The notes under the pieces are model-generated. The model was not told where the DNA came from, did not search any database, and saw nothing but the letters and a program-made list of their open reading frames with translations. A DNA stretch of 54,478 nucleotides from Gammaproteobacteria bacterium (GTDB lineage Bacteria > Pseudomonadota > Gammaproteobacteria > Arenicellales > Arenicellaceae), in contig JAKVBA010000033.1 of NCBI GenBank assembly GCA_022447525.1, positions 1 through 54,478 on the forward strand, read 5' to 3'. The position numbers and the translations under genes are program-made. Of this stretch, positions 39,684-49,684 are shown in pieces; position 1 is the first letter of the stretch, and each line of letters begins with the position of its first letter.

Positions 39684-39714
39684 TAATGGCCACCTATAAG
39701 GCGGCCATTATTTT
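39684..39714 (+). terminator. Intrinsic terminator of the nitroreductase gene
   Basis: TAATGGCC (39684-39691) and GGCCATTA (39703-39710) form an 8-bp perfect stem with an 11-base loop, followed by TTTT. It lies about 30 bp after the nitroreductase stop and overlaps the last codons of the convergent aminotransferase gene. Confidence 0.7.
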
Positions 39715-41064
39715 CTCTACAGAGAACGAGAAGATATCTACTATTTGATCGATCTCTTGCTTACTTGCAATCAATGGTGGTGAAAACGCGACAGAGTCAA
39801 CCGACGGTAGTGGACGTGCGATAAGACCGTTTTTGTAACATTCAGCGGTAACTTGCGGAGCGATTTTAGTTGACGCTGGAAAAAACGTTTTACTGGAACT
39901 ATCTTGCATAAGTTGTACGGCAGCGAGCATCCCTTGCCCGCGAATTTGCCCAACATAGGCTTTTTCACTTACGGCTCTCGCTAGCTGGTCATGAAAATAT
40001 TGACCGTTGAGAGCAGATTGCTCAACTAAGCCTTCTTGTTCAATAATATCGATATTTGCCATAGCGACTGCAGCGCCAATTGGATGACCTGCATAGGTAT
40101 AGCCATGAGCAAAGCTGCCGTATTTTTCGGAACCCTGCTTTACGACATCCCAAATTTCTTCGGTAATGAATGAGGCTGAGAAAGGGAAGTAGCCGCTCGT
40201 TAGAGCCTTGGCGGTTGTGATCATGTCGGGCTCAATACCGTAGACTTCGCTACCCCACCATTTACCTAGACGACCGTAACCACATACTACTTCGTCGGCG
40301 ATAAATAGAATATCGTATTTCTTTGTGACCTTCTGTATTTCAGCAAAGTAGCCTTCAGGTGGTGTTATTACTCCGCCTGCCCCCATAACCGGCTCTGCAA
40401 TAAATGCTCCGACAGTTTCTGGATCGTGCTCCAATATAAGGGCCTCAAGTTCAGACGCTCTACGTTTTGAAAATTCCAGTTCCGTTTCGTTGTCTTTTGC
40501 GTGTCGAAAGTAATCAGGAGATTCGGTGTGCACAACGCCATCAATTGGTAAGTTGAAGTCCTTATGAAAGGAGGGCAGTCCAGTCAGGCTGGCCGTTGCT
40601 ATTGAGGTCCCGTGATAGGCTTGCCAGCGCGAAATTATCTTTCTTTTTTGTGGTTTTCCAATCAAGTTATGATAGTACCAGACAATTTTCATCAAACTAT
40701 CGTTGCCATCAGAGCCTCCGCTGGCAAAAAAGACTTTTGACATATTGTTCGGTGCGAGCTCCAAAAGTCGATCAGCTAACTCAATTTGAGGTATGTTCGA
40801 CATGCCCGTAAAGGTATGATAATACCCCATGTCGCACGCTGCATTATGCATTGCGTCGGCCAATTCTTTACGGCCATACCCGACATTAACGCACCAGAGG
40901 CCAGCGACTGCATCTATTAGTTTATTGCCGTCGGTATCGTGCAGGTAGACACCCTCGCCAGATTGCATTATGCGCGAGCCAGACTTGGCAAATTCATGAG
41001 CATTGGTGGATGGATGAAGGATGCTATTAGCGTCTAATTGTTTTAAGTCACGAGGTTTATTCAT
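39694..41064 (-). CDS. Class III PLP-dependent aminotransferase (omega-amino acid:pyruvate type)
   Basis: This 456-residue fold-type I aminotransferase transfers a terminal amino group from a diamine or omega-amino acid to a keto acid. PLP-binding residues are visible: the Schiff-base Lys286 in TTAKALTSGYFP, Asp257 in FIADEVVCGYGRLG, and the GSDGND phosphate-binding segment, where most relatives read GSEAND. It resembles SpuC- and omega-amino acid:pyruvate-type enzymes. It is divergent from an Lrp-family gene, and the ast operon follows that gene, so N2-succinylornithine is a conceivable substrate because no classical AstC is present. GGAG eight bases ahead supports the ATG at 41064. Confidence 0.9.
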   Translation of the reverse strand: MNKPRDLKQLDANSILHPSTNAHEFAKSGSRIMQSGEGVYLHDTDGNKLIDAVAGLWCVNVGYGRKELADAMHNAACDMGYYHTFTGMSNIPQIELADRLLELAPNNMSKVFFASGGSDGNDSLMKIVWYYHNLIGKPQKRKIISRWQAYHGTSIATASLTGLPSFHKDFNLPIDGVVHTESPDYFRHAKDNETELEFSKRRASELEALILEHDPETVGAFIAEPVMGAGGVITPPEGYFAEIQKVTKKYDILFIADEVVCGYGRLGKWWGSEVYGIEPDMITTAKALTSGYFPFSASFITEEIWDVVKQGSEKYGSFAHGYTYAGHPIGAAVAMANIDIIEQEGLVEQSALNGQYFHDQLARAVSEKAYVGQIRGQGMLAAVQLMQDSSSKTFFPASTKIAPQVTAECYKNGLIARPLPSVDSVAFSPPLIASKQEIDQIVDIFSFSVEKIMAAL

Positions 41065-41280: not shown

Positions 41281-41769
41281 ATGAACGAGTTAAGCAAAAT
41301 CAATAAGACTGATTTAAAGATTCTCTCGATTCTTCAAAAGAATGCGCGAATAACTAATCAGCAACTGGCTGAAGAAGTTCATTTATCGGCTAGCGCTTGC
41401 CTCAGTCGAGTAAAGCGCCTCGAATCAGAAGGGATTCTCAAAAGATATATCACCGAGATTAATCTAGAAAAGCTTGCTCCCCACGTTGAGGCATTTGCAG
41501 AGGTGACGCTAGAAAATCATGCACCCGAGGACTTTGAAAAATTCGATGACGCTATCTCTAAAGTAGGTGAGGTGACAGATAGTTATAAAATAAGCGGTGC
41601 ATACGATTACCTGCTTAAGTTTGTGTGTACGGATGTGCGCCGTTACAACCGTATCAGTGATGAACTTATCAAAGGTGGAATTGGTATTGGCAAAATGAAT
41701 ACGCTCATAATCCTGGAGAGAACTAAAGATTTTTCAGGGTATCCGTTGGAGTCATTGATCGAGCTTTAG
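41281..41769 (+). CDS. Lrp/AsnC family transcriptional regulator
   Basis: This 162-residue regulator has an N-terminal winged helix-turn-helix (LKILSILQKNARITNQQLAEEVHLSA) with recognition helix SASACLSRVKRLESEG, then the RAM ligand-binding domain (about 65-150). Lrp-type proteins form octamers and respond to amino acids. AAGGA lies about seven bases upstream of the ATG. It is divergent from the aminotransferase and upstream of the ast genes, so it probably controls one or both, with arginine, ornithine or a related amino acid as possible effector. Confidence 0.95.
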   Translation: MNELSKINKTDLKILSILQKNARITNQQLAEEVHLSASACLSRVKRLESEGILKRYITEINLEKLAPHVEAFAEVTLENHAPEDFEKFDDAISKVGEVTDSYKISGAYDYLLKFVCTDVRRYNRISDELIKGGIGIGKMNTLIILERTKDFSGYPLESLIEL

Positions 41770-42034: not shown

Positions 42035-43063
42035 ATGATTATTGTTAGAACAGCGCACGAATCTGATCTTGATGGCGTTTTAGAGTTGTCAAGGCAGGCC
42101 TTTCCGGGTATGACTACGCTGCCTCCAGAGCGAGCTGTGTTGATGGAGAAACTGAAAAACTCAAATAGGAGTGTACAAAAAGAAGTCCGTGTCCCTAGCG
42201 ATGAAACCTACTTTCTTGTTATGGAGGATTTGACCAGTCAACAGATTATAGGCACAGCTGCGGTCATTGCGTGTCTTGGCGCTAAGGATGAATTCTACTC
42301 TTACAAACTAAATAAGGTCAGTCAATCGTGTAAAGAGTTAGACAAGCGAGTCTCAGTTGAGACGTTAAATCTATCTAATCACTTTGAAGGATATTCAGAA
42401 GTCGCAACTTTGTACTTAGACGAAAATTTTCGTAAGAACGGTAATGGCTCTTTGCTGGCGCGAACAAGATATCTTTTTATGGCGCAGTTTAGAGATCGCT
42501 TTCCAGAAAGTGTTATGGCCGACTTGCGTGGTTCTTTTGATAAGAATGGAAATTCACCCTTTTGGAATGCGGTAGGGAGCCACTTTTTTGAAATGGATTT
42601 TGCCGAAGCCGATTTATATGGTGCGGTAAATGGTAATCAATTTATTGCCGACTTGATGCCAAAGCAGCCAATTTACGTAAATATGTTGCCTGCAGATGCC
42701 CAAGCGGTGATAGGGCAATGTAACGTCGTCGGTAAACCCGCTATGCGTATGTTGGAGGCCGAAGGATTTCGCTGGAACGGGCACGTGGACATATTTGACG
42801 CAGCCCCTAGTGTCGATACTAAGATAGACGATATAAGGTCTATTAAAGACAGCAAGCTCGCCGAAGTGATTGGTCTGTCTGAGTACGAGGGGGATAGCCA
42901 AGGCTACGTCGCCACTAGTAATATCGAAAGCTTCAAATGTTGTATGAGTACTATTTCAGTGGAAAAAGGTGGTGTTCGATTACCAAGATCGGTGTTGAAA
43001 GCCCTAGATCTTGAACTCGGTGACTCGGTCAGATACCTAATTTATGAACCGGAGTCAAAATGA
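42035..43063 (+). CDS. astA: Arginine N-succinyltransferase AstA
   Basis: AstA catalyses the first step of the AST pathway, succinyl-CoA plus arginine giving N2-succinylarginine. At 342 residues it has the usual length. Family signatures include the N-terminal GNAT-like region with VLELSRQAFPGMTTLP, LYLDENFRKNGNGSLLARTRY, and FPESVMADLRGSFDKNGNSPFWNA. GAGGAA lies eight bases ahead of the ATG. The stop overlaps the astB start in ATGA, which indicates translational coupling. It opens the astA-astB-astE-argC-argB unit. Confidence 0.96.
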   Translation: MIIVRTAHESDLDGVLELSRQAFPGMTTLPPERAVLMEKLKNSNRSVQKEVRVPSDETYFLVMEDLTSQQIIGTAAVIACLGAKDEFYSYKLNKVSQSCKELDKRVSVETLNLSNHFEGYSEVATLYLDENFRKNGNGSLLARTRYLFMAQFRDRFPESVMADLRGSFDKNGNSPFWNAVGSHFFEMDFAEADLYGAVNGNQFIADLMPKQPIYVNMLPADAQAVIGQCNVVGKPAMRMLEAEGFRWNGHVDIFDAAPSVDTKIDDIRSIKDSKLAEVIGLSEYEGDSQGYVATSNIESFKCCMSTISVEKGGVRLPRSVLKALDLELGDSVRYLIYEPESK

Positions 43064-44400
43064 GCACAGAAGTTAACTTTGATGGTCTGATCGGACCAAG
43101 CCACAATTATGGTGGTTTATCACATGGAAACGTTGCTTCAAAAAGTAACGCCTTGCGAATTTCTCAGCCCAAAAAAGCGGCCTTACAAGGGCTTGAAAAA
43201 ATGAACTACCTTCGAGGGTTAGGTCTGGCACAAGGTGTTTTGTTGCCTCAACAGCGCCCTCATCTGCCCACATTGCGATCATTAGGTTTTAGTGGCAGTG
43301 ATGCAGAGATTATAAATCGAGCCAGCAATCAAGCACCGGAGCTCTTAGCACAATGCTATTCAGCTTCAAGTATGTGGACTGCGAATGCTTGCACTGTTGC
43401 GCCCAGTGCCGATACCGCTGATGGTCGAGTTCATTTCACCGCGTCAAATCTATCGAGCATGTTTCATCGTTCGATCGAGCATGAGACCACAACTCGTTTA
43501 CTCAAAAGTATTTTCTCTGACGAAAACTATTTTACTCATCATCAGGCTTTACCATCCGGAGTTCATTTTGGTGACGAGGGCGCCGCTAATCATAATCGTT
43601 TCGCCGAAAACTATGCGGACGCCGGGGTACAGTTATTCGTGTTTGGACGGTATGCCTTTAGAGAAAATAGGTACGCTACTGCAAAGTTTCCGACACGCCA
43701 AACCTATGAGGCTTCTCGAGCGATTAGTCAGCTTCACGGCTTGGACCAGAATCGAGTGGTTTATGCACAACAGAATCCTAAAATTATTGATGCCGGTGCC
43801 TTTCATAATGATGTAGTGAGTGTTTCGAATCTCAACACTTTTTTTATGCATGAGGAAGCGTTTGTCGATAAAGCATCAATGCAGGATGAATTGCGCAGAA
43901 AATACAATGGCGAGCTGCACTTTATTGAGGTTCCCACTGAGCAAGTATCCCTGCAAGCGGCGGTTAAATCCTATCTTTTTAACTCCCAGTTAATTCAGCT
44001 CCCAAATGAACAAGGTATGGCTTTGATTTTGCCGAGCGAGAGTCAAGAGAATGCGGAGGTTTTTGCCTATTTACAAGACTTGAAAGAGCAAGACACGCCA
44101 ATAAAACACGTGCAGTTTGTTGATGTTAGGCAAAGTATGCAAAATGGCGGTGGTCCAGCTTGTTTACGCTTACGAGTTGCCTTGAATCAGGCAGAACTTG
44201 GCGCGGTGAACTCTAAGTTTATTCTCGACGATCAATTATTTGCTGAACTTAATCGCTGGGTGAATAAGCATTATCGAGATGAAATTCATCCTGATGATCT
44301 TCGAGATCCTAAATTAGCCCAGGAGAACTTCTTTGCATTGGATGAGCTAAGTCAAATATTTGATCTAGGCTCATTTTACGAATTTCAAAGAGAGGCTTAG
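43060..44400 (+). CDS. astB: N-succinylarginine dihydrolase AstB
   Basis: AstB hydrolyses N2-succinylarginine to N2-succinylornithine, two ammonia and CO2. This 446-residue member of the amidinotransferase fold starts with FDGLIGPSHNYGGLSHGNVAS, a strong family signature. The catalytic Cys is in QNGGGPACLRLRV and the catalytic His in AFHNDVVSVSN. It overlaps astA by four bases, and astE starts 32 bp downstream. It commits the pathway to nitrogen release, so the operon is catabolic. Confidence 0.97.
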   Translation: MSTEVNFDGLIGPSHNYGGLSHGNVASKSNALRISQPKKAALQGLEKMNYLRGLGLAQGVLLPQQRPHLPTLRSLGFSGSDAEIINRASNQAPELLAQCYSASSMWTANACTVAPSADTADGRVHFTASNLSSMFHRSIEHETTTRLLKSIFSDENYFTHHQALPSGVHFGDEGAANHNRFAENYADAGVQLFVFGRYAFRENRYATAKFPTRQTYEASRAISQLHGLDQNRVVYAQQNPKIIDAGAFHNDVVSVSNLNTFFMHEEAFVDKASMQDELRRKYNGELHFIEVPTEQVSLQAAVKSYLFNSQLIQLPNEQGMALILPSESQENAEVFAYLQDLKEQDTPIKHVQFVDVRQSMQNGGGPACLRLRVALNQAELGAVNSKFILDDQLFAELNRWVNKHYRDEIHPDDLRDPKLAQENFFALDELSQIFDLGSFYEFQREA

Positions 44401-44432
44401 AAAATGGGTGCTGGTGTACCCGGGACGTATAG

Positions 44433-45425
44433 ATGAGTTTTTTGCAAACTACACTAAGCGGCAATTTTGACCAATCTGAGCGGTTGACCATTTTAGGTGA
44501 TGGTACTGAAATTCGGTGGATCGAAAATGGTGTGCTAAGGGTTTCACCTAAGACCGAGATAAAATCATCGAATCAATTGATCATTTCCAGTGGTGTACAT
44601 GGTAACGAAACGGCTCCAATGGAAATCGTTGATGCCATTGTAAGTGATATTTACAGCGGTGCACTGTCGTTAAAAACAGAGGTCTTATTTATTATCGGAA
44701 ATCCAGAAGCTGCAAGAAACCAACAGAGATTTATTGATGATAACCTCAATCGATTATTCAGTGGTAAGCATGAGAAGTTCGATAGTCCAGAGGCTAAAAG
44801 AGCTCAAGTATTAGAGAAAATCGTAGGAGATTTTTATTCTGCAGTATTGGCTCCAGACGGACAAAGGCTACACTACGATTTGCATACGGCTATTAGGGGC
44901 TCCGAACTTGAAAAATTCGCAGTTTACCCCTACCTGCCGGACCAAAATTGGTCCTCTGCTCAAATTGGCTTCTTAGAACAATGTGGAATCCAAGCAGTAT
45001 TGTTATCGAGTCAGCCCAGCGGCACCTTTTCGTATTACACCAGTAATGAATATGATGCGCACTCTTTCACCGTAGAGTTGGGCAAGGTAAGAAAGTTTGG
45101 CGAAAACGATATGTCTCGATTTATTGCGGTCGATCATGGATTGCGTGATTTGATATCTGCTAAAGAATCATTTGTTAACAAGCCAAATTCGATCAAAATT
45201 TTTGCTGTTGTTGAAGAAGTCATAAAGAAAACAGATAGATTTCAGCTACATGTCGAAGATGATGCCAAAAACTTCACCGAGTTTCCGAAGGGTGTTCTGT
45301 TAGCCAGTGATGAAGGTTATGAATACCGTACGCGAATCGACGGAGAAAGATTTGTCTTCCCGATTAGTAATGTACCTTGTGGCCAGCGTGCCATGTTAGT
45401 CGTAGCACCAACTTTTATAGAGTAA
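44433..45425 (+). CDS. astE: Succinylglutamate desuccinylase AstE
   Basis: AstE catalyses the last step of AST catabolism, hydrolysing N-succinylglutamate to glutamate and succinate. This 330-residue zinc enzyme is of the M14-related AstE/AspA family. The zinc ligands His56 and Glu59 lie in SGVHGNETAP, the third His in HYDLHTAIRGS, and the catalytic Glu in FTVELGKVRKFG. It lies 32 bp after astB, and argC starts 15 bp after it. The enzymes that should make its substrate, AstC and AstD, are not in the operon. Confidence 0.95.
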   Translation: MSFLQTTLSGNFDQSERLTILGDGTEIRWIENGVLRVSPKTEIKSSNQLIISSGVHGNETAPMEIVDAIVSDIYSGALSLKTEVLFIIGNPEAARNQQRFIDDNLNRLFSGKHEKFDSPEAKRAQVLEKIVGDFYSAVLAPDGQRLHYDLHTAIRGSELEKFAVYPYLPDQNWSSAQIGFLEQCGIQAVLLSSQPSGTFSYYTSNEYDAHSFTVELGKVRKFGENDMSRFIAVDHGLRDLISAKESFVNKPNSIKIFAVVEEVIKKTDRFQLHVEDDAKNFTEFPKGVLLASDEGYEYRTRIDGERFVFPISNVPCGQRAMLVVAPTFIE

Positions 45426-45440
45426 AAACGTTAAAGTATT

Positions 45441-46499
45441 ATGAATAAAACCAAAGTATCGATTATTGGCGGTTCCGGCTTTCTCTCGGCTGAGTTAATG
45501 CGTAACCTCCTGGTTCGAGATGATGTCGAGTTTCTACGGGTGTCTAGTAAAGACCACATTGGTCAAAATATCGGTCAGGTGCATCGCACTTTTTACGGAT
45601 TAAGTGATCTTGTTCTGGAGGATATTCCTCCGACGGAATGCGTCGATGGTGCTGACATTGTGTTCTTAGCGATGCCGCACATCACAACTGCGAAGGTTGC
45701 GATGGACTTATTCGATACTAATGTTCGTATTATTGATTTGTCCGGCGATTTTAGGCTGAAAGAGTTAGATGATTACACTCGTGTTTATGCACCTAATCAC
45801 CCTTGTCCAGAAAGGCTAGGTACTTTTGTTTATGGAATGCCTGAATTATTTGCTGATGAAATTCGTAATGCTCAATATGTCGCCAATCCGGGATGTTTTG
45901 CAACGTGTATAGCAGCCTCATTGTTGCCGTTGGCAAAGCAAGGACAACTGAGTGGTCACACCGTGCGGTTGGTTGCCCTTACCGGGTCGAGTGGTTCAGG
46001 TGTACATCCTCAAGCGGGCAACCACCATACCATTCGGAGTAATAATATAAAGGCGTATAAGGTATTCAATCATCAGCATACCCCTGAAATACTACAGACG
46101 CTGCGAGCTGCCGGAGGGGAGCAAGTATCACTTGACTTTGTGCCAGTATCAGCGCCTTTGTCTAGAGGGATGATGTCGATCGCACAAGTTGATGCGCCCG
46201 ATGACATCAGTGAAGATGAATTACGTCAGCAATATGAAGACTTCTTTGCTGACTACCCGCTGATTTCAGTATTGCCGAAGGGTATGACACCTGAGGTTGT
46301 GTCGGTTAAAAATACTCTTAGAATAGAAATTGGCCTTGATATCAAGACCGATGAGGTTTCGGGAAAACGAACCCTATGTGCTATTGCTGCTTTGGATAAT
46401 TTAATAAAAGGCGGTGCTGGTCAGGCTATACAAAACTTTAATTTGATGACTGGCAAAGAAAACGCGTATCAATTACAACAACCCGGGATGTGGCCATAG
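45441..46499 (+). CDS. argC: N-acyl-gamma-glutamyl-phosphate reductase ArgC
   Basis: This 352-residue NADP-dependent reductase interconverts N-acetyl (or N-succinyl) glutamyl 5-phosphate and the 5-semialdehyde. The Rossmann motif is GGSGFLSAEL; the catalytic Cys152 lies in ANPGCFAT and the general-base His213 in FNHQHTPEI. The loop between them, with ALTGSSGSGVHPQ then HHTIRSNNIKAYK, looks closer to the LysY/Bacteroidetes-type branch than to E. coli ArgC; this is a visual judgement. Biosynthetic in most organisms, but here it lies 15 bp behind astE in a catabolic operon, so reverse operation on the succinylated semialdehyde is possible. No other arginine-synthesis genes except argB flank it. 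Confidence 0.93.
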   Translation: MNKTKVSIIGGSGFLSAELMRNLLVRDDVEFLRVSSKDHIGQNIGQVHRTFYGLSDLVLEDIPPTECVDGADIVFLAMPHITTAKVAMDLFDTNVRIIDLSGDFRLKELDDYTRVYAPNHPCPERLGTFVYGMPELFADEIRNAQYVANPGCFATCIAASLLPLAKQGQLSGHTVRLVALTGSSGSGVHPQAGNHHTIRSNNIKAYKVFNHQHTPEILQTLRAAGGEQVSLDFVPVSAPLSRGMMSIAQVDAPDDISEDELRQQYEDFFADYPLISVLPKGMTPEVVSVKNTLRIEIGLDIKTDEVSGKRTLCAIAALDNLIKGGAGQAIQNFNLMTGKENAYQLQQPGMWP

Positions 46500-46525
46500 A
46501 AGTTTTTAGTGATAGCGAGTTGACA

Positions 46526-47377
46526 ATGCACCTGAAAAATTCGGAATCGCACCAAAGAAAGAACCCGATTGCTGTTATAAAAGTCGGCGGCGACATGGTG
46601 CTACAAGACAGCGATAGGCTTGCGTTAGCCTCCAATATTAATGATCTTTTGAAGTCAGGTTGGCGCTGTGTTGTGCTACACGGCGGAGGGCCACAACTTA
46701 ATGTATTGCAACAGATTCATGGACTTACTCCACATAAGATTGAAGGTCGGAGGATCACATCGTTAAGTGACTTGAAGGTGGTTAAACAGGCCTTATGCGG
46801 TGAGGTAAACGTTGATTTAGTCTCTGCGTTAGTAGGGCAGGGTATTTCAGCGTTCGGATGCCACGGTGCTTCCGGACAGTTGATCAAAGCCAGCAAACGT
46901 CCACCGATGGACCTCGGCCCGAAGGGAGTGGTTGATTTCGGTGAGGTTGGAGATGTTGTGAAAATCAAAACTAAGATACTTGACACATTATTGGAGGCTG
47001 AGCAGGTCCCAGTAATCGCTTCGCTTGGAATCGATGATCAGGGCAGAGTCTTTAACATTAATGCAGACACCACTGTTGCAGCTATCGCAAGCGCTTTACG
47101 AGCGGATTTATTAATACTTTCCACTAAGGTTGGCGGTATATTCGAAAATATCGATAAACCAGAAACGCGAATTCCTAAGGTTTCACCCAAAATTGCTGAG
47201 CGCTTAATTGATGATCAAATAATCACCGATGGAATGATCCCCAAAGTACGTGAATCTCTCGGATTATTGACCAAAGGAGTTGCTAAAATAGCGATAACCA
47301 ATGCCGCTAATTCCGGTGGGTTTTTAAAAATTGCACAAGGATCGAAACGCATAGGAACAATTCTTGTTAGGGATTAA
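46526..47377 (+). CDS. argB: N-acyl-glutamate kinase ArgB (amino-acid kinase family)
   Basis: This amino-acid-kinase fold protein phosphorylates N-acetylglutamate or a related N-acyl-glutamate. IKVGGDMVL is the N-terminal glycine-rich phosphate loop, VLHGGGPQLN the second, then VFNINADTTVAAIA and the ITDGMIPKVRESL segment. From the ATG at 46526 it has 283 residues. A GTG at 46490 would add 12 residues and overlap argC by 10 bp; neither start has a strong ribosome-binding site. There is no fused acetyltransferase domain as in the Xanthomonas enzyme. It is the last gene of the ast-arg unit. In reverse it would make ATP from an acyl-glutamyl phosphate. Confidence 0.9.
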   Translation: MHLKNSESHQRKNPIAVIKVGGDMVLQDSDRLALASNINDLLKSGWRCVVLHGGGPQLNVLQQIHGLTPHKIEGRRITSLSDLKVVKQALCGEVNVDLVSALVGQGISAFGCHGASGQLIKASKRPPMDLGPKGVVDFGEVGDVVKIKTKILDTLLEAEQVPVIASLGIDDQGRVFNINADTTVAAIASALRADLLILSTKVGGIFENIDKPETRIPKVSPKIAERLIDDQIITDGMIPKVRESLGLLTKGVAKIAITNAANSGGFLKIAQGSKRIGTILVRD

Positions 47378-47500
47378 ACTGGCATTTTCCACAGACGTAG
47401 TTAGCTAAAAAGTTAGAGTTTGACATGCACCAATTCGAGTTGTGCGAATCACTGCAATTTGTCTTTTTGGGCTTCACTAATTGGTTGTTACACTACCGCC

Positions 47501-49684
47501 ATGAAACGCAAAAGTAGATCGATAATAAAAATTGTACTGTCTTTGAGTCTAATTCTCGTGCTGGGCGCCGGCTACTATCTTTACGACCCGAATGATAGCA
47601 ATCCAAGTGCATCCAGTCTGGCGAAAGGTTCCGAGAGTTTTGATGTTGAAATCATTCGCGACCAATGGGGTGTGCCTCATGTTTTTGGTCAGACCGACGC
47701 GGATGTTGCTTTTGGGCTCGCCTATGCTCATGCGGAAGATGATTTTCAGACCATTCAGGAAACCGTAGCGGCGACACGAGGTGTACTAGCAAGCTACCGA
47801 GGTAAAGCGTCAGCTCCGATAGATTACATAGTACGGTTGATGGGAATTTGGGAGATGCTGGAGAAAAACTATGGCAACATTCCAGATGACGTGAAGAATC
47901 TTGTTGATGGCTACGCAGCGGGGATAAATTTGTATGCCTCCCAAAACCCTAACTCGACCTGGCAAGGGCTGGCGCCTTTCACGGGCAAAGACATTATTGC
48001 CGGGTTTATGTTTAAAACTCCATTCTTCTATGGTTTCGATAAGCATCTCCAAGACTTATTCAATGAGGATCGAGATGTTGAAGTCGCCTTGGCTCCAAAC
48101 CGTACAACGAAAGCCTGGCAATTACAAAGACAAGGGACAAATGATCTGGGTTCTAATGCGATAGCTGTGCGAGCCTCTCGTTCAACTGACGCCACGACCC
48201 GATTGTTGATTAACTCCCATCAACCTATGACTGGCCCAGTTGCGTGGTACGAAGCACGTCTTGTGTCAGAGCAGGGGCTTGATATATATGGCGGCTTGTT
48301 CCCGGGCACACCAGTGATTTTACACGGCTTTAATCGGAGCCTAGGATGGGCTAATACGGTGAATCACATTGATTTAGTGGATACTTATAGACTCGAGCTC
48401 AATCCCAATCAGCCTAATCAGTATTTACTAGACGGTCAGTGGAGAGACTTCGAAGTTAGTCATGCCCTATTTAAAGTCAAGCTATGGGGGCCATTTATGT
48501 GGTCAGTCAAGCGAGAAGTGTTACGAAGTGCCCATGGGCCGGTGATACGAAATGGTGACAAAGCTATCGCGGTGCGCTATGCGGGGATGAACGAGCTTCG
48601 GCAACTTGAACAATACTATCGGTTAAACAAGGCGCAATCTTGGTCTGAGTTTTACTCGGCGATGGAAATGAATGCGCTGCCGAGTATTAACTATATTTAC
48701 GCTGATAAAGACGACACAATCGCGTTCGTCCACAATGCACAATACCCTGCAAGAAATGATGCATGGGATTGGAAAAATGATTTGCCGGGCAATGACAGCT
48801 CCTTGATTTGGAAAGAATATCTTCCATTCGAGCGAGTTCCGCTGTTGCTGAATCCGCAGAGTGGTTTGATCTTTAATGCGAATAACACTCCTTTTGTGTC
48901 AACTGATGGAGAAGACAACTTAGTTGAGGTTGATTTCCCTCAATCGATGGGGTTGGCTAAGGACAATACTAATCGAGCTTATCGCCTCATGGAAATGAAT
49001 GATGGAGTCACAAAGATTTCGAAACAGACGTTGTTGCAGCAGAAGTTTGATATCGAATATTCCAAACAGTCTGAATATTATAAAATACTAGAAAAGGTTT
49101 TGGCACAGGATTGGTCGGATGATCGCAGTTTGGTTGAGGTTCAAAATAGGATCAAAGCATGGGATAGGAAGGCTAATATAGATAACCGCTACACGGCATT
49201 ACCAATACAAATACTACGTAATATTTTACGAGCACAAGACCCTGAAGATCATTCGCCGGAAACCCTCAGAGAAGCTGCCCAGCATGCTGTTGAAAAACTA
49301 ACAGAGGTGTATGGGCGGGTCGATCCCAAATGGGGTGAGACAAATCGATTAATTCGAGGTGATTTTGATAAGCCAGTCAACGGCGGCCCTGATTTGTTGA
49401 GAGCTATTTATTCTATGGAAGAGACCGAAGACGGCCGTCCATACGCGACTCATGGCGACACCTGGATGGCGCTCGTCGAATGGTCTGCAAACGGCGAGCA
49501 AAGAGCGGATGTTCTTCATCAGTTTGGTAGCGCTACGCTTGCACAAAGCTCCAGACATTATTCCGATCAGGCGAATTTGTTTGTTGAGGAAAAATGGCGA
49601 ACAGCAATACTCAGTAAAGAAGAGGTATTGAAAAGCGCCTCTCGCGTTTACTCGCCTGGATCAGCTTCGTCGTCTCAACCCTAA
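47501..49684 (+). CDS. Penicillin acylase family Ntn-hydrolase, exported
   Basis: This 727-residue precursor has an N-terminal hydrophobic signal or anchor at about 9-28. The alpha chain shows RDQWGVPHVFGQTDADVAFGLAYAHAEDDF. The maturation site is before Ser218 in TNDLGSNAIAV, whose Ser becomes the N-terminal nucleophile of the beta chain. The beta chain has NSHQPMTGPVAWYE and LGWANTVNHIDLVDTY. The family cleaves amides such as acyl-homoserine lactones, beta-lactam side chains or bile-acid-like conjugates; the natural substrate is unknown. I chose ATG 47501, which starts MKRKSRSIIK, over the TTG at 47420. It lies 123 bp after argB. Confidence 0.9.
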   Translation: MKRKSRSIIKIVLSLSLILVLGAGYYLYDPNDSNPSASSLAKGSESFDVEIIRDQWGVPHVFGQTDADVAFGLAYAHAEDDFQTIQETVAATRGVLASYRGKASAPIDYIVRLMGIWEMLEKNYGNIPDDVKNLVDGYAAGINLYASQNPNSTWQGLAPFTGKDIIAGFMFKTPFFYGFDKHLQDLFNEDRDVEVALAPNRTTKAWQLQRQGTNDLGSNAIAVRASRSTDATTRLLINSHQPMTGPVAWYEARLVSEQGLDIYGGLFPGTPVILHGFNRSLGWANTVNHIDLVDTYRLELNPNQPNQYLLDGQWRDFEVSHALFKVKLWGPFMWSVKREVLRSAHGPVIRNGDKAIAVRYAGMNELRQLEQYYRLNKAQSWSEFYSAMEMNALPSINYIYADKDDTIAFVHNAQYPARNDAWDWKNDLPGNDSSLIWKEYLPFERVPLLLNPQSGLIFNANNTPFVSTDGEDNLVEVDFPQSMGLAKDNTNRAYRLMEMNDGVTKISKQTLLQQKFDIEYSKQSEYYKILEKVLAQDWSDDRSLVEVQNRIKAWDRKANIDNRYTALPIQILRNILRAQDPEDHSPETLREAAQHAVEKLTEVYGRVDPKWGETNRLIRGDFDKPVNGGPDLLRAIYSMEETEDGRPYATHGDTWMALVEWSANGEQRADVLHQFGSATLAQSSRHYSDQANLFVEEKWRTAILSKEEVLKSASRVYSPGSASSSQP

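Follow-up and report, generated by a model that had tools for sequence, protein, structure and literature searches.

A proposed ATP-conserving variant of the arginine succinyltransferase pathway in which a dedicated ArgC-ArgB pair would replace AstD

The window analyzed here is a stretch of 54,478 nucleotides of contig JAKVBA010000033.1 (assembly GCA_022447525.1), from a gammaproteobacterium of the order Arenicellales. At 42035-47377 it carries an operon, astA-astB-astE-argC-argB, in which genes of the arginine succinyltransferase (AST) pathway of arginine breakdown are followed by genes of two families named for arginine biosynthesis. With a probability of roughly 0.8, we read this operon as encoding a phosphorolytic variant of AST, in which a dedicated ArgC and a dedicated ArgB replace the succinylglutamate-semialdehyde dehydrogenase AstD and conserve energy as ATP. 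Comparative genomics gives good support to the replacement of AstD; the direction of the two reactions, their substrate, and the ATP yield are inferred. The variant is real and conserved and is probably functional.

RESULTS

The operon combines AST genes with argC and argB. All five open reading frames (ORFs) are intact, tightly spaced, and on the + strand (coordinates and family assignments are given in Table 1), which bears out the initial annotation of five genes in one direction without astD. The astA and astB ORFs overlap by 4 bases. The argB ORF overlaps argC, and its start is uncertain, with a GTG at 46490 and an ATG 12 codons later. AstA, AstB, and AstE occur together, each above the cutoff of a curated model, and no gene of the AstC, ArgD, or AstD families is found in the operon. 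Against the narrower model TIGR03244, AstA scores 345 bits, under the cutoff of 391; its sole match among solved structures, 1yle, is titled "Arginine N-succinyltransferase, alpha chain."

The source genome has other argC and argB copies but no AstD. The initial annotation suggested searching the full genome for a second argB-argC set and for astD, and the source genome (a 3.62-Mb draft, 96.5% complete) bears out its inference on both points. The other ArgC (C165:22575-23603) follows two ribosomal protein genes, these neighbors being named by eye, and the other ArgB is at C167:21844-22617; each is 33% identical to its counterpart in the operon. Because these copies exist, the operon argB and argC are unlikely to be plain biosynthetic genes. 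They are neither the sole copies nor placed with biosynthetic genes, their operon partners being ast genes. The AstD model had six matches in this genome, none reaching the cutoff (the best scored 270 of 579 bits); among 14 control genomes, this model passes in two, E. coli and Caulobacter. One ArgD-family gene is above the cutoff, on contig C147 beside argF and near argG (both named by eye). No AstC-family gene is in the cluster, although the source genome as a whole was not searched with the AstC model.

The operon pair and astD exclude each other in the order. In a sample of 109 genomes of the order, operon-type ArgC (77 to 100% identity and at least 498 bits, the next matches scoring at most 222 bits) was found in 13, each of them belonging to the window's genus. 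AstB was found in 21 and AstD over the cutoff in 7, and there was no overlap between the 13 genomes with operon-type ArgC and the 7 with AstD. Eight AstB genomes lack operon-type ArgC, and all of these have astD beside astB, over the cutoff in seven; in the eighth, G022, it is in two overlapping pieces. For this reason, G022 is not counted as a genome that has AST but lacks both routes. The two pieces (L070:63-1450) appear to reflect a frameshift or an assembly error.

Three of the astD genomes (G002, G008, and G011) belong to the window's genus and have the order ArgD/AstC-type gene, astA, astD, astB. Both versions of AST, with astD and with argC-argB, occur within this genus, and natural comparison pairs therefore exist. 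The order astB-astE-argC-argB recurs in 12 same-genus loci (astE in 12, astB in 11, argB in 11, with two gaps at sequence ends), so the arrangement is not due to chance; the initial annotation had suggested looking for conservation of the five-gene order in relatives lacking astD. When the window was compared with these loci, ArgC was far more conserved (mean identity 86%, 12 loci) than AstE (58%, 12 loci), ArgB (63%, 11 loci), or AstB (71%, 11 loci).

Across the class, 23 of 370 sampled genomes have AstB. The 19 outside the window's genus all have AstD over the cutoff, and the 4 inside it do not. Operon-type argC-argB was absent from the stretches around astB of those 19 genomes, whose full sequences were not searched for the pair. 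Fisher's test gave values of 5e-6 for the order and 3e-14 for the pooled samples; both ignore relatedness, and the pooled value also takes operon-type argC to be absent from all of the 19 class genomes, as was checked only in the stretches around astB.

AST-type argC-argB pairs are also found beyond the window's genus. GTDB species genomes were scanned with an alignment of 12 operon-type ArgC proteins, and the best 80 of 172 relatives were retained. Among the matches listed, 29 loci (L079-L107, 59 to 89% identity) are AST-type. They come from Arenicella, Kangiella, Pleionea, Aliikangiella, IMCC1989, Colwellia RSH04, metagenome-assembled genomes (MAGs) labeled Exilibacterium (one) or Porticoccaceae/Cellvibrionales, and others. 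By contig position, G006 and G015, two of the genomes of the window's genus, correspond to the Arenicella-labeled loci L079 and L081, respectively. In 28 of the 29, argB comes after argC; the remaining locus, L106, ends inside argC. Directly before argC is astE in 21 loci; among the other eight, the sequences of L086 and L099 break off close to argC. Six further loci (L108-L113, 44 to 46% identity) are Myxococcota-type, two of them titled merely Deltaproteobacteria. More distant relatives (L114-L158, at most 39% identity) mostly have other arg genes adjoining. One AST-type argC-argB pair (L105) is in a MAG labeled Desulfobacterales whose genome also has AstB, which suggests transfer or contamination.

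The genomes of 25 of the 35 loci L079-L113 were searched, 19 AST-type and 6 Myxococcota-type. AstB was found in 18 of the 19 AST-type genomes and AstD in 3 (G114, which is Colwellia RSH04, G121, and G123), leaving 16 without AstD. With the 13 genomes of the order, AstB accompanies the AST-type pair in 31 of 32 genomes, and AstD was not found in 29 of 32. In both Aliikangiella genomes, the fetched stretch has argC-argB without an ast gene, and astA and astB are elsewhere, beside an ArgD/AstC-type gene.

These searches bear on whether the operon pair could be a second biosynthetic argC-argB set that lies behind the ast genes by happenstance and serves acetyl-route arginine synthesis. The family models name both proteins as acetyl enzymes, and in 4 of the 25 searched genomes (G115, G121, G123, and G129) the sole ArgC found is of the operon or sister type, G115 being a Kangiella in which no second ArgC was found. 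However, the window's genome and 21 of the 25 have another ArgC match (over the cutoff in 14; with an internal stop in 2 of the other 7). In one of the two Kangiella genomes (G113) and in both Aliikangiella genomes, this second ArgC comes after a long ArgB (394 to 423 residues) that its length and context mark as a fused synthase-kinase. The near-constant company of AstB also speaks against a biosynthetic set, and breakdown and synthesis in one operon would be a futile cycle. We consider this explanation very unlikely.

The AST-type enzymes form their own clades. The 24 AST-type rows fall into one clade with 100/100 support in the ArgC tree (72 rows) and likewise in the ArgB tree (62 rows). 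In both trees the sister of this clade is the Myxococcota-type pair, and most Bacteroidota rows form a clade apart from both. The window's ArgC has a mean identity of 46% to the Myxococcota-type proteins, 34% to canonical gammaproteobacterial proteins, 34% to those of Bacteroidota, and 32% to Firmicutes-labeled proteins. Only one column in ArgC and one in ArgB are shared with Bacteroidota alone. The initial annotation had judged by eye that the active-site loop of ArgC looks closer to the succinyl branch of Bacteroidetes; neither the trees nor the shared-column counts support such closeness.

The same results argue against a third explanation, that ArgC and ArgB act synthetically on succinylated intermediates, salvaging succinylglutamate as in the arginine synthesis of Bacteroidetes. 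Succinyl-type synthesis does exist in that group, according to an excerpt of PMC7311316, but ArgC and ArgB both fall outside the Bacteroidota clade. AstB and AstE are encoded in the operon, and L079-L107 contain no argF-type match. Such a salvage role is highly improbable.

The Myxococcota-type argC-argB loci (L108-L113, e.g., L113:6733-9856) all have a gene for an M20-family deacylase nearby, and 5 of the 6 genomes have a second ArgC match. The M20 deacylases of L109 and L113, the two tested, score under the ArgE/DapE cutoffs. The deacylase may parallel AstE in these loci, and the pair possibly serves a parallel acyl-glutamate route.

Residues of ArgC and ArgB are conserved in the AST clade. 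The operon ArgC has the Cys and His, and the operon ArgB the Lys and Asp, that we take to be catalytic. Kept in all 24 AST clade rows are Cys152, His211, His213, Glu216, and Arg242 of ArgC and Lys31, Arg88, Asn189, Asp193, and Lys252 of ArgB. Arg88 corresponds to Arg66 of E. coli N-acetylglutamate kinase (NAGK), which is termed N-acetylglutamate (NAG)-binding in a passage of PMC3236213.

In addition, His195, His196, Arg199, Ser186, and Gln212 of ArgC are present in all 30 AST and Myxococcota-type rows, and canonical gammaproteobacterial proteins mostly differ at these positions. These residues are not unique: His195 is found in 8 of 10 Bacteroidota rows and Gln212 in 3 of 10 Firmicutes-labeled rows, and most of the five recur in the four rows classed as "other." 5eio, titled as a bifunctional lysine/arginine-type reductase, shows the His-His-x-x-Arg pattern too. 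Next to Arg88 of ArgB, Arg87 is present in 24 of 24 AST clade rows; elsewhere the position is Leu (all 10 Firmicutes-labeled rows and the genome's other ArgB) or Gln or His (7 of 9 Bacteroidota rows). Extra arginines could bind the succinyl carboxylate; ArgB Arg87 is at most suggestive of succinyl specificity.

Judged from ORF starts, some ArgB proteins of the clade (e.g., those of L107, L094, and L104) begin just before the first strand and do not have the long N terminus of the genome's other ArgB. The window's ArgB has a longer N terminus, the start of which is uncertain. Because the arginine site of yeast NAGK lies partly at the N-terminal helix (stated in part of PMC3329491), the clade kinases with short N termini may escape arginine inhibition. 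Such an escape would suit a catabolic kinase.

Several observations weigh against the replacement of AstD or against its being strict. Three of the 32 clade genomes have AstD as well. In Colwellia RSH04, astC-astA-astD-astE-argC-argB form a single run, an apparent operon (L092:3010-9921), and each of two Kangiellaceae MAGs contains both an ArgD/AstC-astA-astD cluster and astE-argC-argB. In Kangiella, the clusters of L091 and L093 lack astE. In the six Myxococcota-type genomes, neither AstB nor AstD was found. ArgB Arg87 occurs in 6 of 6 Myxococcota-type rows as well, and because the sister pair in those genomes shares it, Arg87 is no marker of an AST role. Finally, a quick AstB tree (58 genomes, several long branches) requires at the fewest 6 changes for argC-argB and 7 for astD, and on its starred branches it offers four independent pairs, of which none goes the same way, 2 or 3 go opposite ways, and 1 or 2 show no difference (sign test, P = 0.25 to 0.5), so that independent support is thin. 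A claim of significance from these pairs was ruled out, since four pairs cannot reach it.

The source genome also has six generic aldehyde dehydrogenase matches that might perform the AstD step, two of them adjoining aminotransferase genes that read as GabT-like by eye. A generic, GabD-like dehydrogenase could thus oxidize the semialdehyde, with the operon ArgC and ArgB doing something else or forming a redundant side route, and the three clade genomes with both AstD and argC-argB would fit that arrangement. But it leaves unexplained why AstD was not found in 29 of the 32 genomes that carry AST-type argC, or why none of the 19 class genomes with AstB outside the genus lacks AstD. We regard this alternative as unlikely.

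Replacement of AstD by ArgC and ArgB, as the initial annotation proposed, is well supported by the other argB and argC copies, the lack of AstD, the near-perfect exclusion with astD, the conserved gene order, and the retained catalytic residues. The three genomes with both weigh against a strict replacement.

The proposed pathway would couple aldehyde oxidation to ATP formation. AstA would convert arginine to succinylarginine and AstB would convert this to succinylornithine; family membership is established for both, and their activities are predicted from it. A transaminase, probably the adjacent class III enzyme and possibly ArgD, would then give succinylglutamate semialdehyde. We propose that the operon ArgC is a phosphorylating succinylglutamate-semialdehyde dehydrogenase, which would convert the semialdehyde, phosphate, and NADP+ to succinylglutamyl phosphate. 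The operon ArgB is the proposed kinase that would give succinylglutamate and ATP from succinylglutamyl phosphate and ADP, and AstE would release succinate and glutamate. The pair would in this way substitute for AstD, a hydrolytic dehydrogenase, and save energy through substrate-level phosphorylation. Aldehyde oxidation coupled to formation of an acyl phosphate and then to phosphorylation of ADP is favorable overall, by analogy with glycolysis. Parts of PMC4271523 and PMC6941894 describe semialdehyde plus phosphate plus NADP+ as the practical assay direction for this reaction, the enzymes there being ProA variants and not ArgC.

The operon neighborhood includes a regulator and a class III aminotransferase. 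Both genes (Table 1) are part of the conserved neighborhood of the operon. The Lrp/AsnC-family gene adjoins the operon also in L079, L082, L084, L106, L212, and L213 and is a probable local regulator. The class III aminotransferase gene is divergent from the operon, and its product scores 217 of 410 bits against the ArgD model and is of another subfamily (Table 1). Of 8 distinct Arenicella-like loci for which sufficient sequence is available, 7 (L079, L082, L083, L084, L106, L212, and L213) have a relative of 72 to 82% identity upstream; the eighth, L081, has only a 37% relative. In all five Porticoccaceae-like loci that reach upstream (L085 and L087-L090), a class III aminotransferase gene immediately precedes astA in the same orientation. 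An ArgD/AstC-type gene replaces it in the three astD-type stretches of the window's genus, and Kangiella L091 has a gene above the AstC cutoff (679 bits, cutoff 610). The initial annotation reported that astC was missing; this is correct for the AstC family, but the adjacent, conserved class III aminotransferase is a probable substitute for it as succinylornithine transaminase, with ArgD as a possible alternative. Directly 3′ of argB is a gene of the penicillin-amidase family.

TABLE 1 Genes of the operon and its flanks in the window
Gene or product	Coordinates	Strand	Family evidence
Class III aminotransferase	39694..41064	-	PF00202, 303 bits; NF004767/PRK06105, 582 bits (cutoff 517)
Lrp/AsnC-family regulator	41281..41769	+	Pfam HTH_24 and AsnC_trans_reg
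astA, arginine N-succinyltransferase	42035..43063	+	TIGR03243 (subfamily), 372 bits (cutoff 284); PF04958, 399 bits; 1yle
astB, N-succinylarginine dihydrolase	43060..44400	+	TIGR03241, 665 bits (cutoff 538)
astE, succinylglutamate desuccinylase	44433..45425	+	TIGR03242, 362 bits (cutoff 306)
argC-type semialdehyde dehydrogenase/acyl-phosphate reductase, AST clade	45441..46499	+	TIGR01850, 313 bits (cutoff 233.6)
argB-type amino-acid kinase, AST clade	46490..47377	+	TIGR00761, 184 bits (cutoff 151.3)
Penicillin-amidase-family gene	47420..49684		NCBIfam, acylase PvdQ as best match (173 of 950 bits)

DISCUSSION

Taken together, the results make it quite likely that there is an ATP-conserving AST route whose ArgC-ArgB pair is related to the Myxococcota-type pair and arose independently of the succinyl enzymes of Bacteroidetes, with a class III aminotransferase serving for AstC in Arenicella-like and Porticoccaceae-like genomes. 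This would mean that AST comes in two energetic forms, both of them present in a single genus. If this is true, one ATP is gained at the aldehyde step by enzymes of biosynthetic families working in reverse. It would also correct the names of these genes, which are acetylglutamate kinase and reductase according to curated models, and would close the apparent AstD gap of Arenicella, Kangiella, Pleionea, Aliikangiella, and Porticoccaceae-like genomes.

To our knowledge, AST as known so far gains no ATP from the energy of its aldehyde oxidation. Among the matches listed from titles and starts of abstracts in open-access PMC, a scope outside which subscription papers and preprints fall, none described argC or argB in an AST operon, and "succinylglutamyl phosphate," in four spellings, did not occur in open-access PMC. 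A word search of the main text of the GapMind catabolism paper (PMC9007349) found no argB, argC, or astD.

The AST genes are known as astCADBE in E. coli and aru in Pseudomonas. The operon shares with them the AstA, AstB, and AstE families and their clustering, but AstD is absent and an ArgC-ArgB pair is in the operon; there is no AstC-family gene, and another class III aminotransferase adjoins it in Arenicella-like and Porticoccaceae-like loci. With the biosynthetic N-acetylglutamate kinase ArgB and N-acetyl-gamma-glutamyl-phosphate reductase ArgC, the operon pair has in common its families, catalytic residues, and argC-argB adjacency. It differs in forming its own clades, in sharing 33% identity with the other copies in the genome, in residues near the acyl site, in its catabolic operon, and in the reverse direction and succinyl substrates proposed here. 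Glyceraldehyde-3-phosphate dehydrogenase and phosphoglycerate kinase likewise carry out a phosphorylating aldehyde oxidation and then form ATP from the acyl phosphate; they are of other protein families and act on another substrate, so the likeness is one of mechanism alone. With the succinyl-type synthesis of Bacteroidetes and its N-succinylglutamate kinase, as outlined in part of PMC7311316, the operon would share succinylated intermediates, but that route runs in the biosynthetic direction and its enzymes are in different clades in both trees.

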